Of a stretch of DNA of 64,000 nt, positions 30,490-41,166 are shown piece after piece. A program made the position numbers and the translations under genes. The stretch comes from Haloterrigena sp. KLK7. Lineage in GTDB: Archaea; Halobacteriota; Halobacteria; Halobacteriales; Natrialbaceae. Numbering within the stretch: the first letter of the stretch is position 1; each line of letters starts with the position of its first letter. Location of the stretch: assembly GCF_037914945.1 (NCBI RefSeq), contig NZ_CP149787.1, forward strand, positions 2,914,001 to 2,978,000, given 5' to 3'. The notes under the pieces were generated by a model. That model saw only the letters and a list, made by a program, of their open reading frames with translations. It was not told the DNA's origin and searched no databases.

Positions 30490-31953
30490 ATGGCCACCCG
30501 TTCGTCGACCGCGAGTCGCGTCCTCGTCTGTCTCGTCGCCCTCCTCGTCTGCGGCGCTTGGACGGTCGGGATCGTCGCCGCCGCGACCGGCGGGTCCGCC
30601 TCGCTCGAGACCGACGACGGTTCGCTCACGGGGACCGTCGACGAGACGGACGACGAGATCGAGAACGCGACGAACGATACTGATAGCGAGATCGAGAACG
30701 CGACGAACGAGACGACCGACGGGAGTCAAAACGCGACCGATGACACGACTGACGGGACCGGTGAGGCGGTCGACGAGACGACCGACGAAATCGACGAAAC
30801 CGTCGACGAACCCACCGATCCCCTCGAGAACGGGACCGAAACGGCGACGGACGTGGCCGACACGATCACCGACGAAACGACCGATACAGTCGACAACGTC
30901 ACCAATGAGACGGCCGGGACGGTCGACCGAACGCTCGATAACTCGAGCGGCGCCGTCGCCGGTAGCGGCGAACTCAACGGATCGATCGGATCGGGGTCCG
31001 TCGATCTCGAGGCGTCGGCGTCCGCGTCGACCGGCTCGAGCGACGACACGGACGAGGGCGATACCGCGGGCGCGACCGATTCCGCCGGCGGTGTCGGCGG
31101 CGGTGGCGCGGTCCCCGACGGCTCCTCGTCGGCGACTGACGCCGTCCTCGTCGGCCTGCTCGGGACGATCACCGCCGCGGGGGCCGCCAGCGCCGCCGGC
31201 GGGGCGGCCGGAGCCGGCGCCGGTGTCGGTGCGAGTACCGGAGCCGCTGCGGGGTCGGCCGGCGCCGCCGGCACTAGCGCAGGCGGCGCCGCGGCCGGCG
31301 GCGCGACCGGCCTCGCTGCGAAGTGGCTCGGTCAGTCGTCGGTCCTCCGGTACCTCCGGCGGGTCGGGTCGCTCGTCCCGTGGAAACTCGTCCCGATCTT
31401 CAGGTACAGCCGCTACGACGATTCGGACCCGCTCGAGAACGATCGGCGGCGGACGATCTACGAGACCGTCGCGGACGATCCCGGCTGTTACCTCTCGGAA
31501 GTCAGCGAGCGCAGCGGCGTCGCCCTCTCGACGGTCCGCCACCACGTCCGCGTCCTCGAGGAGGAGGGGCTGGTCGCCGCGGCCAAGGTCAACGGCAAGC
31601 GCCGGTACTTCCTCGAAGACGACGGGATGACGGCCGACGACGGCGACGCGATCGCCGACGTCGAACTCCACGCCGCCCTCGCGGAGCCGGCCAAACGCGA
31701 GGTGCTCGAGACGCTCGCCGACCTCGGGTCGGCGCCGAACGGCCGTCTCGCCGACGAACTCGAGCGCGACCCGAGTACCGTCTCCCACCACCTCTCGGCG
31801 CTCGAGGAGGACGGGCTGGTCGTCCGCGAGAAGGACGGTCGGTCGGTCGTCAACGAACTCGTGCCCGCGGTCGAAACGACCCTGCGAAGCGAGGACGCGG
31901 CGCTCGAGGACGTATCGGCCGAGACGTCGGCATCGGCGCCCGCCGACGACTGA
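30490..31953 (+). CDS. Membrane-anchored double winged-HTH regulator with acidic surface domain
   Basis: A 487-residue protein. Residues 10-32 form a signal-like helix. Residues 38-205 are a low-complexity, extracellular-type stretch rich in Asp, Glu, Thr and Asn, with repeated NATN/NETT sequons (candidate N-glycosylation sites). A Gly/Ala-rich hydrophobic segment lies at about 215-280. The cytoplasmic part has two winged helices: SEVSERSGVALSTVRHHVRV (about 335-355) and LADELERDPSTVSHHLSAL (about 418-436). The layout suggests a one-component sensor passing an outside signal to DNA. The start at 30490 places the signal helix at the N-terminus. Confidence 0.72.
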   Translation: MATRSSTASRVLVCLVALLVCGAWTVGIVAAATGGSASLETDDGSLTGTVDETDDEIENATNDTDSEIENATNETTDGSQNATDDTTDGTGEAVDETTDEIDETVDEPTDPLENGTETATDVADTITDETTDTVDNVTNETAGTVDRTLDNSSGAVAGSGELNGSIGSGSVDLEASASASTGSSDDTDEGDTAGATDSAGGVGGGGAVPDGSSSATDAVLVGLLGTITAAGAASAAGGAAGAGAGVGASTGAAAGSAGAAGTSAGGAAAGGATGLAAKWLGQSSVLRYLRRVGSLVPWKLVPIFRYSRYDDSDPLENDRRRTIYETVADDPGCYLSEVSERSGVALSTVRHHVRVLEEEGLVAAAKVNGKRRYFLEDDGMTADDGDAIADVELHAALAEPAKREVLETLADLGSAPNGRLADELERDPSTVSHHLSALEEDGLVVREKDGRSVVNELVPAVETTLRSEDAALEDVSAETSASAPADD

Positions 31954-33473: not shown

Positions 33474-34037
33474 TCACTCGAACGACGTCGTATCGCCGCG
33501 CCGGTAGCGGTCGAGACGACGGTAGCCGTGGACGGTCGCGTTCTCGTCGAGTTCGATCTCGTAGCGACCGACGATGTCCTGCGTGTCGGGGACGGCCCGC
33601 CGCTCGACGACTTCGACGACCGCGCGCCAGCCGTCGTCGGTCGGCGAGATCTCGCTGACGGCGTCGAACTCCCGGCCGATGAGTTCGCCGGCGGTCGACT
33701 GGACGGTCCGGCGAACCGCGAGGACGCCCGCGATCTCGTCGTGATCGGTGTCGACGTCGGCGTCTACTTCCTCGGGATCGGTCTTCTCCTCGCCGGTCAT
33801 GTCGACCGCACCCAGTTCCTGGCTCTGGGCCTGCGACTGCCGTTCGTCGTCCTGTGCCGCTTCGTCCTGTTCGTCTTCGACTGCTTGACTGTCACTCACG
33901 GTTGGATCACTCTCGTCGTGCTGATAGCAGAAGCCGTCCTCCTGGGCCGGCCGCGAACAGCGCTCGCCGTCCTCGGTCAGCGCCCGACACTGGTCCTGCG
34001 CTTGCTCCGCTGATTGCTGGGTATCGGCTTCGGCCAT
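33474..34037 (-). CDS. gvpO: Gas vesicle protein GvpO with N-terminal zinc-knuckle-like extension
   Basis: A 187-residue protein. The C-terminal 90 residues are a normal GvpO domain (VRRTVQSTAGELIGREFDAVSEI, given in part, and DDGWRAVVEVVERRAVPDTQDI, then GRYEIELDE and YRRLDRYRRGD). GvpO is required for vesicle formation. The N-terminus carries an extra motif, CRALTEDGERCSRPAQEDGF, then CYQH: a C-x8-C-x9-C-x2-H pattern like small zinc-binding knuckles. A long acidic, Gln-rich linker joins the two. It is the last gene of the gvpA-gvpN-gvpO transcript. Confidence 0.88.
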   Translation of the reverse strand: MAEADTQQSAEQAQDQCRALTEDGERCSRPAQEDGFCYQHDESDPTVSDSQAVEDEQDEAAQDDERQSQAQSQELGAVDMTGEEKTDPEEVDADVDTDHDEIAGVLAVRRTVQSTAGELIGREFDAVSEISPTDDGWRAVVEVVERRAVPDTQDIVGRYEIELDENATVHGYRRLDRYRRGDTTSFE

Positions 34038-34118: not shown

Positions 34119-35174
34119 TCAGACCGACTCGGCGATCTGCGTCCGGAGCTGCGAGACGTCCTCTGGCCCCTCGCCGGCGATCTTCGGCGCGAGGACGTCC
34201 ATGAAGACGTCGGTCAGCAACTCGTCGTCGAACTCGCCGACCTCGCCGTCGCCGTCTCCGTTTCGCTGGCCGTCGAAGACCGCCAGCCCCTTCGCGGCCG
34301 TGATCGCCGCCCGCGTGCCGACGACGAGGTCGAGTTCGTCCCGCAGCGCTCGCGTCTTCGCGACGATCGCCTCGACGTCTTCCTCGGAGAGATCGACGTG
34401 AGACTTGACGATCTCGCGCTCGGTCTCCTCGTCGTAGTAGTCGATGTGGACGCCGACGAAGCGGTCGAGCAGCGCGTCCTGCTGTCGGTGAACGCCGGCG
34501 TACTCGACGTCGTTCGAGGTGAAGATCGCCCGGAACTCGGGGTGGACGTCGATCGTCCGATCCTCGCCGCGCTTGCCCGGTCGCTCGAGGACGCCCTCCT
34601 CGAACACCGAGAGCAAGACGTTGTGCGCCGAGGGGTCGCTACGCGAGAACTCGTTGTAGACGAGCGTCGCGCCCTCCCGGACGGCCACCGAGAGCGGGTT
34701 GTCGACCCACCGTTCGCGGACGACCTCGGTCTTCTTGCTGACGCCGCCGACGAACTGGTCGGTCTCCTTGTACCGTTCTCCGCCGGCGTTCGCACCGACG
34801 AGCGCGGCCGTGTCGACGGACTCGTCGCCGTTGATCCACACGACCGGTCGGCCGCGCTCGGCGGCGGCCGACAGCGCAAGCGCCGTCTTCCCACAGCCCG
34901 TCGGGCCGATCAGGTGGACCGGCTTCTCCGCCTCGAGCCAGCCGGTGATCCGGCTTCGCAGCGAGGCGACGGCGTCGGTCTCGATGAACGGTTCGGGAGC
35001 GACGTCTTCGGGAGCCGAGAGGGGACCGTCCCCGCTCTGCGCGCTCGACGACGACGTCCCGTTCGACGACTGCCGGGCGAGTTTCTTCTTCGCACGCCGT
35101 CCCTGCTTCTCGGAGCGGTCGCTCGTAATCTTCCGACCTCTGACCTTGCGCTTGCGCGACGAATCGTCGGCCAT
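34119..35174 (-). CDS. gvpN: Gas vesicle protein GvpN (AAA+ ATPase)
   Basis: A 351-residue MoxR/NorQ-type AAA+ ATPase that promotes vesicle growth. After a basic 60-residue N-terminus (RKRKVRGRK, KQGRRAKKKLAR) comes Walker A GPTGCGKT at residues 90-97. Walker B is TLVYNEFSRS (about 170), and EFRAIFTSNDVEYAG (about 215) is the sensor region. The gene starts 6 bases after the gvpA stop. The basic extension is longer than I expect for haloarchaeal GvpN. Confidence 0.92.
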   Translation of the reverse strand: MADDSSRKRKVRGRKITSDRSEKQGRRAKKKLARQSSNGTSSSSAQSGDGPLSAPEDVAPEPFIETDAVASLRSRITGWLEAEKPVHLIGPTGCGKTALALSAAAERGRPVVWINGDESVDTAALVGANAGGERYKETDQFVGGVSKKTEVVRERWVDNPLSVAVREGATLVYNEFSRSDPSAHNVLLSVFEEGVLERPGKRGEDRTIDVHPEFRAIFTSNDVEYAGVHRQQDALLDRFVGVHIDYYDEETEREIVKSHVDLSEEDVEAIVAKTRALRDELDLVVGTRAAITAAKGLAVFDGQRNGDGDGEVGEFDDELLTDVFMDVLAPKIAGEGPEDVSQLRTQIAESV

Positions 35175-35180
35175 GGAGGG

Positions 35181-35471
35181 TTATTGGGTGGCGGATTCGG
35201 GTGACGATTCCGGACGCGGTTCGACCTCGAGCTCCTCCAGCTCCTCGAGGTCGCCCTCCGCCGTCGCTTGCTCAATTTTCGCGATCTCCTCCGCGTAGTG
35301 CAGGAAGGTGTCCACGGAGGCGACGACGACGCGGGCCTCGATCGTCAGGAGTTCGATCCCAACGACCGAGATCCGCGCCCAGACGTCGATGACGACGCCC
35401 TTGTCGAGGATGCGATCCAGTACCTCCGCGAGACTCGAGGAGTCGGGTCTCCGACCTGATGATGCTGCCAT
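35181..35471 (-). CDS. gvpA: Gas vesicle structural protein GvpA
   Basis: This 96-residue protein is the main wall protein. Residues 11-68 match GvpA almost exactly: [40 protein letters not shown] and [13 protein letters not shown]. The N-terminus has an extra SSGRRP and the C-terminus an acidic 25-residue tail ([17 protein letters not shown]), making it about 20 residues longer than Halobacterium GvpA. The ATG read from 35471 follows a TATA-like TTACGAA (minus strand, 35494-35500) at the right distance. Confidence 0.94.
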
Positions 35472-35650
35472 ACGGACGATGGTACAGCACGGGTTCGTAA
35501 CACGACAAGGGCTGCGTCTGCAAGCCGCCGTCTCCGGATCGATCGCTCGAGCGACCGATCGGTGCCGTCGCCGCGGGCTGCGATTGCAAGCACCACGATG
35601 ACCCATCGCGGCGGTGAATCTCACGTGACGAGTTCCTCGAGTACCCGCAG
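35472..35650. promoter_or_regulatory. gvpA/gvpF divergent control region with paired 17-mers and a central palindrome
   Basis: Two 17-base direct repeats, GGGCTGCGTCTGCAAGC (35509-35525) and GGGCTGCGATTGCAAGC (35575-35591), differ at two bases. Almost midway between them is a near-perfect 24-base palindrome (35537-35560; arms of 12 with one mismatch; core TCGCTCGAGCGA). The first repeat sits just upstream of the gvpA TATA-like element, where activator sites lie in other haloarchaeal gvp loci. The sequence is unlike the GvpE site I know, and gvpE is absent. Confidence 0.5.
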
Positions 35651-35809
35651 GTGAGGGCCGGCGAGGCGGATTCCGGCGGCGCTCCCCGGGTAGTCGACCC
35701 CGTTCCCATGATATCCCGATCGATCCGTCTCGAGGCCGTGGACGAATCGCGCCCGCGCTTGCGGGCACGAGCAGCGCCGCCGTTCGACGCCGGGGTGATC
35801 GACCGATGA
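35651..35809 (+). CDS. Candidate small ORF coupled to gvpF
   Basis: An open frame whose stop overlaps the gvpF start by ATGA at 35806-35809. It may begin with GTG at 35651 (52 residues) or ATG at 35708 (33 residues: a basic, Arg-rich peptide with [19 protein letters not shown]). There is no homologous family I recognise. The evidence is the overlap and the need for an upstream mRNA leader, as gvpF has a strong Shine-Dalgarno site (GGTGATC, 35794-35800) rather than a leaderless start. It could be a chance frame. Confidence 0.3.
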
Positions 35810-36429
35810 CCCACCGATACGTCTACGGCGTGATGAACGACGACCCCGTCGAGTTCGAGACCGACGCGGTCGGCGGCGCCGACCGCGTCTACACGGTCTC
35901 GCACCGACGGCTCAACGCCGTCGTCTCCGACATCGACACGACCGATCCGGAGGAGACCGACGAGGACGCCCAGCGACACGACGACGTCCTCCGGGAGATC
36001 ATGGAGCGCGACGGCGGCCGCACCATCGTCCCGATGCAGTTCGGGATGGCCTTCGAGAACGATCGGGCACTGAAGAACGTCCTTCGAGGCGCGAGACCGG
36101 CGTTCCGCCGCGCGATCAACGACATCGAGGGCCGGGAGGAACTCGGCCTCAAGGTCGTCCGCGAGGAGGACGCCGACGTCGATACCGACGCGCTCGAAGA
36201 AGCCGTCGCGGACGCGCTCGAGCCGATCGCCGCCCAATCGGTCCCCAACGACCTGTTCAGCGATCGGCTCGTGCTCAACCGGTCGTACCTCGTCGACCGC
36301 GACGAGCGCGAGCGGTTCGACGAGGCGGTGGCCGACCTCGAGGCGGAGTACGACGACCTCATGTTCCGCTACACGGGGCCGTTCGCGCCGTACAGCTTCG
36401 TCGACGTCAAGATCGGAGCCCAACAGTAA
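35806..36429 (+). CDS. gvpF: Gas vesicle protein GvpF
   Basis: A 207-residue GvpF/GvpL family protein. It opens [16 protein letters not shown], then [20 protein letters not shown] and [20 protein letters not shown] (typical of the N-domain), and ends [20 protein letters not shown], the conserved C-terminal signature. GvpF is a minor essential vesicle component that binds GvpA. First recognised gene of the rightward operon; the ATG at 35806 follows a good Shine-Dalgarno site. Confidence 0.93.
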
Positions 36430-40950: not shown

Positions 40951-41166
40951 TCAGGCGTGCTTCGGTCGTTCCGTGGTGAGCTCGACGTCGCCGGAGACGT
41001 CCTCCGTATCGCGGTCTTCGTCGTAGACGTACTGACCGGTAGCCCCGCAGAGCGTACACTCGTAGGTCTCGGAGATCTCGTTGATCATCTCCCCGTCCTC
41101 GAAGTAGACGCGGCTCTGCGTGATCTGCAGGAATTGGGCGGTCTCGCAGTTACTGCAGGTGATCAT
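40951..41166 (-). CDS. Small zinc ribbon protein, haloarchaeal
   Basis: A 71-residue protein with two CxxC sites: CSNCETAQFLQ at the start and CTLCGATGQYV at about 37-47. The pattern is a simple zinc ribbon. The acidic C-terminus ends TERPKHA. The function is unknown. It is convergent with gvpM and not part of that operon. Confidence 0.65.
   Translation of the reverse strand: MITCSNCETAQFLQITQSRVYFEDGEMINEISETYECTLCGATGQYVYDEDRDTEDVSGDVELTTERPKHA

Follow-up and report, generated by a model that had tools for sequence, protein, structure and literature searches.

The divergent start of the gas vesicle gene cluster in Haloterrigena sp. KLK7 carries two copies of a conserved sequence element, one at gvpA and one upstream of gvpF, and copies stand at the same two genes in most of the Natrialbaceae loci we compared. 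We believe that the copies are two independent promoter-proximal sites and not parts of one module. Judging from sequence comparison, a dedicated DNA-binding activator other than GvpE probably acts at the core of the element before each gvp unit, working there as GvpE does at its UAS. The cluster lies inside the window, which is the whole 64-kb stretch of DNA analyzed here, in a genome of 4,641,606 bases. The features that matter are these, with gvpG and then more gvp genes following downstream of gvpF:

33474 to 34037, minus strand: gvpO (PF05800, E 7.6e-28).
34119 to 35174, minus strand: gvpN, with an AAA_5 domain; the anchor for collecting loci.
35181 to 35471, minus strand: gvpA, 96 aa (PF00741, E 2e-16), heading the gvpA-N-O unit.
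35495 to 35526, minus strand: element A, GGCTTGCAGACGCAGCCCTTGTCGTGTTACGA, the gvpA promoter element, which starts 55 nt before the gvpA ATG.
35495 to 35503, minus strand: GTGTTACGA, conserved at the gvpA TATA position, -32 to -24 from the ATG, with a putative TATA/BRE role.
35512 to 35525, minus strand: core of element A, GCTTGCAGACGCAG, inside the first repeat; seven of its columns are invariant over the 90 loci with a core.
35537 to 35560, no strand: near-palindrome of 24 nt, judged a chance feature outside the system.
35575 to 35604, plus strand: element F, GGGCTGCGATTGCAAGCACCACGATGACCC, the proposed gvpF promoter element, on which profile R2 has its top hit within the window (E 6.9e-10, a value that is not independent since R2 was built from 44 sequences including this one).
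35578 to 35591, minus strand: core of element F, GCTTGCAATCGCAG on the minus strand and CTGCGATTGCAAGC on the gvpF strand, inside the second repeat.
35597 to 35602, plus strand: GATGAC, presumably the TATA-like sequence belonging to the proposed gvpF promoter (GATAAC in the family consensus of 79 loci).
35806 to 36429, plus strand: gvpF (PF06386, E 6.2e-46), heading the opposite unit.

The N-terminus of GvpO (33474-34037) also matches DUF5763 (E 4.4e-19), besides the GvpO domain.

The original prediction described two 17-nt direct repeats at nearly equal distances on either side of a 24-nt near-palindrome, and proposed that this symmetric module binds a new regulator acting in both directions. 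The repeats exist, at 35509-35525 and 35575-35591; they are 88% identical with two mismatches, their starts are 66 nt apart, and one of them does lie directly 5' of the TATA-like sequence of gvpA, which starts at 35471 on the minus strand. A pair of this kind is not rare as such. Pairs of 17-mers that differ at no more than two positions and lie 20-200 nt apart number 132 in the window, against 10.4 in order-1 Markov sequence. The repeats stand above chance through the core that each of them contains, GCTTGCA-N3-GCAG, because the host genome has exactly two copies of it and it is conserved across the Natrialbaceae. The pattern GCTTGCANNNGCAG is found in the 4,641,606 bases only in these two places, both at this site, and a reversed control pattern, richer in CG steps, is found 56 times.

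The palindrome is also present, with one mismatched pair, 11 and 14 nt from the two repeats, but it does not survive as a functional part. One such palindrome is seen in the window against a mean of 1.55 in order-1 and 1.1 in order-3 Markov sequence (20 simulations each), and it is absent from the matching 90-nt stretch of five congeners, where the best candidates have three to five mismatched pairs. On this chance frequency and this absence we reject it as an operator. Conservation in orthologous loci, the comparison by which the original prediction proposed to judge itself, thus holds for the repeats and not for the palindrome, and the near equality of the distances between them is accidental, since the spacing of the copies runs from 35 to 1304 nt over 78 loci.

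Independent support for element A comes from its conservation. GvpN matches were found in 92 of 125 Natrialbaceae genomes. Our set consists of 91 stretches plus the window, which gives 92 loci from 91 genomes; a GvpN place at a contig edge (G090) and a second place in G101 were left out, and the stretches are mostly about 20 kb, some shortened by contig ends. Of the 92 loci, 90 (from 21 genera) have the core in the 75 nt upstream of gvpA at up to two mismatches (72 exact, 16 with one, 2 with two), where by our estimate about 0.7 of 92 matches would be expected by chance. The two loci with no core before gvpA at that threshold, L137 and L138, are divergent clusters (GvpN identity 57-58%) that we kept among the 92. 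Over the 90 loci the distance from core start to ATG is 46-61 nt with a median of 55. Information content is about 0.1 bit per column in the upstream flank, rises to 1.15-1.87 bits in the element (five-column means) and falls to 0.46-0.83 downstream.

The family consensus of element A is GGCTTGCAgtcGCAGygCaAGcCGTGTTACGA, followed by a conserved A 12 nt further on in 87 of 90 loci. It ends in the sequence at the presumed TATA position: eight of the nine alignment columns of GTGTTACGA (22-30) carry 1.2-1.6 bits. The distance between core and ATG puts TTAC near -28, which suggests a leaderless gvpA transcript. One point against the explanation we prefer is that the CAAG half following the core is degenerate both in the window and in its congeners. 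One genome whose gvpN is broken or unmatched (G023) has a gvpA with only a degenerate element A (R1 E 0.004) and one core further upstream. A second 12-nt match in G116, 47 nt from element A, spans the gvpA start codon and we take it as chance. Outside the family, one outgroup promoter (L178) shares CAAG-N5-TTACG, as seen by eye.

We built profile R1 for element A from 48 sequences, and its best match in both the window (E 4e-08) and the host genome (E 3e-6) is element A, with E-values that are biased for A since the window's own copy is among the 48. When 150 of 1418 candidates in the host genome were scored, the second match was the F core (E 0.26) and the third a site at an orphan gvpA (E 0.33). 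This paralogue of 95 aa (L002 1363-1650, minus strand; G000:C1, ATG at 2197262) lies about 750 kb from the gvp cluster, and a degenerate copy of element A, a weak match agreeing at 24 of 32 positions, begins 62 nt upstream of the ATG of this paralogue. Over 392 genomes of the order R1 has a match at E <=0.01 in 74, and 72 of these are Natrialbaceae; there is no gvp match around either of the two outside the family (E 0.0056 and 0.0084; L208, L209). Some matches within the family are also away from gvp genes, namely second matches in G093 and G077 and one in G009 (L206, L207, L210), and with strict filters R1 missed GvpN-positive genomes, at least G018, G024, G086 and G099.

Across a collection of 84,980 species genomes, a stricter 20-base pattern from element A, which misses the window's own element, picks out 24 stretches. 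In each of the 24 the pattern is followed by gvpA on the same strand, and 21 show another core (at most one mismatch) within 1500 nt upstream; these stretches partly overlap the 92 loci and so are not an independent sample. They come from Natrinema, Natronorubrum, Haloterrigena, Halopiger, Halobiforma, Natronococcus, Natrarchaeobius and Natronolimnohabitans, all genera of the Natrialbaceae. The 14-nt core alone is not fully specific. It matches in 113 of 125 family genomes, including ones without a GvpN match, and the seven extra places that we inspected (L211-L217) have no gvp gene nearby. In four genomes where gvpN is broken or unmatched (G036, G065, G084, G049) both cores are present with at most one mismatch. 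The element is conserved amid a diverged background and tied to the promoters of a defined gene set, as a transcription factor site would be, and its regulon looks limited to gas vesicle genes.

Element F tells much the same story at the opposite unit. Seven loci without a gvpF match were excluded from the count, which leaves 85. The F core is present in 79 of them at up to two mismatches, a threshold at which we estimate that a few matches would arise by chance, and in 78 at up to one (68 exact, 10 with one); six have no F core even with two mismatches and G118 has it only with two. In the 78 loci it lies 94-419 nt before gvpF, with a median of 215. The consensus on the gvpF strand is ggCTGCgacTGCAAGCAccACgaTaACcC, and relative to its own gene the F core points the opposite way to the A core. 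Downstream of element F, at 35626-35650, TGACGAGTTCCTCGAGTACCCGCAG recurs in many aligned loci, close to where the gvpF transcript is predicted to begin, roughly 170 nt before the ATG in this genome. It may act as an initiator or leader element, or be a coding relic.

The idea of a symmetric module does not survive a comparison of loci. A chance palindrome that is not conserved would be its center, and the spacing of the copies is free, exceeding 300 nt in 11 of the 78 loci (a tandem core in G013, 25 nt apart, was not counted as F or in the spacing range). Genes can stand between the copies. In seven loci (G016, G033, G034, G036, G037, G039, G040; L082, L087, L088, L093, L094, L096, L148) gvpA and gvpF are separated by a gene that reads towards gvpF and encodes a small membrane protein (about 130 aa, SPW-like by eye), and in G060 by a larger ORF, protease-like by eye; the cores are still at gvpA and at gvpF. 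Then there are the split clusters. No gvpF was found within about 11 kb of gvpA, less at contig ends, in six genomes, and a search placed it 52-192 kb off or on another contig. Both genes keep a copy in 5 of 5 testable genomes (G027, G111, G112, G114, G117): an F-type core precedes the start of the gvpF match by 290-398 nt and the A core stays at gvpA, with one mismatch in G112. In the sixth, G116, gvpF is at a contig edge, outside the 5/5 count. Free spacing, intervening genes and retention of both copies in split clusters lead us to two independent promoter-proximal sites. We give no weight to an apparent helical phasing of the copies (R 0.34 at 10.5 bp, p ~0.005), since the 44 genus-spacing pairs behind it are related by descent.

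In the loci compared, the element and gvpDE were not found together. What the original prediction said of a missing gvpE is borne out for the stretch of about 20 kb around the site, which has no match to gvpD or gvpE, and tblastn with the H. salinarum GvpD and GvpE (E 1e-4) gives none in any of the 92 stretches. Conversely, in nine gvpDE-bearing loci (non-family loci plus the Halobacterium plasmid) the core is absent at up to two mismatches from the last 200 nt before gvpA. The same holds for that distance in all 16 loci compared, which are 13 non-family loci plus L137, L138 and L045; the 13 are those of 24 non-family loci with a gvpA match on the expected strand. The GvpE UAS has the consensus TGAAACGG-N4-TGAACCAA, and the family consensus, compared with it by eye, is unlike it, so the claim that the repeats differ from the GvpE-responsive sequence stands as well.

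What remains of the proposed regulator is the part that fits these results: the repeats are very likely regulator sites, both divergent units have one and its sequence is not the GvpE element, but the symmetric module finds no support. We would replace it with the following. Each divergent unit, gvpA-N-O on one side and gvpF onward on the other, carries one promoter-proximal candidate site with the core GCTTGCA-N3-GCAG. A dedicated sequence-specific protein other than GvpE probably binds each copy beside the BRE/TATA region, and the bound protein would recruit or stabilize TFB/TBP. In favor of this, the place of the core upstream of the presumed TATA position agrees with that of the GvpE UAS (PMC4390858) and of CsmR sites (PMC13286277). 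In this way gvpA, probably leaderless with its weak GTGTTACGA near -28, and the gvpF unit with its long leader would be activated in parallel. Both GTGTTACGA and GATAAC make poor TATA boxes. That the core faces opposite ways before gvpA and gvpF sits awkwardly with one activator that touches TFB in a single geometry.

The same sites could instead be operators of a repressor, which on binding would block TFB/TBP or the polymerase and so silence the gvp units. Two observations suit a repressor: the sites directly adjoin the presumed TATA position, and Vac-minus species have been reported from the same genera (PMC4390858). We nevertheless consider it unlikely. The core appears to lie upstream of the presumed TATA position and not over it, and the weak sequences at that position would fit a need for activation. 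The element could also be an extended core promoter that is read by a TFB/TBP paralogue without a separate regulator. Element A continues without a gap into GTGTTACGA, and Halobacterium salinarum has several TFB and TBP genes (PMC4390858). This seems improbable to us, as the exact core is present only twice in the host genome. The recognition of BRE and TATA is directional, whereas the shared core faces opposite ways at gvpA and gvpF and stands at different distances from the TATA-like sequence; the orientation argues against a plain extended BRE.

A relative of GvpE encoded elsewhere in the genome is a third candidate, since the host genome has a match to a PadR-like protein of about 168 aa (41% identity, residues 57-175), as do 87 of the 125 family genomes, and GvpE itself matches PadR in Pfam. 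We think it very doubtful that this protein binds the elements. It is found in 63 of 92 GvpN-positive and in 24 of 33 GvpN-negative genomes, which is no association (Fisher p 0.83), and it is absent from 29 GvpN-positive genomes at E 1e-5. The one copy we inspected (L140 1492-1992, minus strand) adjoins an ORF that we take to be an archaellum FlaE-type gene, and this suggests that GvpE has an archaellum-linked relative. The notion that the conservation reflects a short coding region or a leader RNA structure can be set aside as hardly credible: element A is readable as a recurring peptide and a GGCTTGC/GCAAGCC hairpin is possible in some loci by eye, but the reading phase with respect to gvpA divides 34/34/22 among the three possibilities, each frame has stops in 29-42 of 90 loci, the right arm drifts against an invariant left arm, and the core has opposite orientations relative to gvpA and gvpF.

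Two proteins encoded in the window were tried as the regulator of the preferred scheme and rejected. The first is a zinc-ribbon-like protein of 71 aa (40951-41166) beside gvpM, with two CxxC motifs and no Pfam family above the cut-off. It has matches in 83 of the 92 stretches, but family genomes that lack a GvpN match have it as well (116 of 125 genomes in all), and in G111 its match is more than 200 kb from both gvp parts. The second (30490-31953) is a predicted protein with two winged-helix domains (HTH_24, HTH_5) and a long N-terminal part, probably membrane-linked, near the gvp cluster; it has a match in 34 of 92 stretches.

A 2015 review describes several haloarchaea, including species of Halopiger, Natrinema, Natrialba and Natronobacterium, that have 11 gvp genes without gvpC and gvpDE and are Vac-minus, and it gives the expression of such clusters as not known (PMC4390858). 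A conserved element tied to gvp promoters in clusters without gvpDE indicates that these promoters are under selection. On balance we lean towards a second gas vesicle control system, unrelated to GvpD/GvpE, in most clusters of the family. It would have a dedicated regulator, a regulon of gvp genes only (gvpA, the gvpF unit and here the orphan gvpA) and selection that keeps the seven core bases in all 90 loci, and it would probably also be present in species considered free of gas vesicles. The element also points to two or more distinct modes of gas vesicle control among haloarchaea, and it can serve as a specific bait for the regulator and for the inducing condition.

We found no description of the element in the literature on gas vesicle regulation, searching titles, the beginnings of abstracts and motif letters in mainly non-subscription papers; among the papers listed for the motif letters none concerned haloarchaea. 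Three known systems deserve comparison. CsmR sites in Haloferax volcanii, TATCA-N4-TGATA upstream of BRE/TATA, for which the authors inferred positive regulation (PMC13286277), are, like our element with its presumed BRE/TATA, short, semi-palindromic, haloarchaeal and upstream of BRE/TATA, but the sequence is unrelated and CsmR acts on genes of motility and cell shape rather than on those of gas vesicles. The p-vac region has a separate promoter for gvpF-M, PpF, with a 169-nt leader; it lies inside gvpE and is GvpE-independent (PMC4390858). A separate gvpF promoter with a long leader is what we propose in the Haloterrigena locus too, but no gvpE was found there and the proposed promoter carries a conserved element.

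The closest parallel is the GvpE UAS itself. In Halobacterium salinarum and Haloferax mediterranei UAS_A and UAS_D are 20 nt long, two 8-nt parts with 4 nt between them, and lie directly upstream of BRE at divergent promoters, where a close distance between UAS and BRE is essential (PMC4390858). The core of element A would likewise stand upstream of the TATA position presumed for gvpA, one of two divergent gas vesicle promoters. Unlike the GvpE UAS, the family elements have another sequence by eye, belong to stretches with no gvpD or gvpE match, and do not overlap. The GvpE sites serve gvpA and gvpD, whereas the family elements stand at gvpA and gvpF, and both are kept when the cluster is split.
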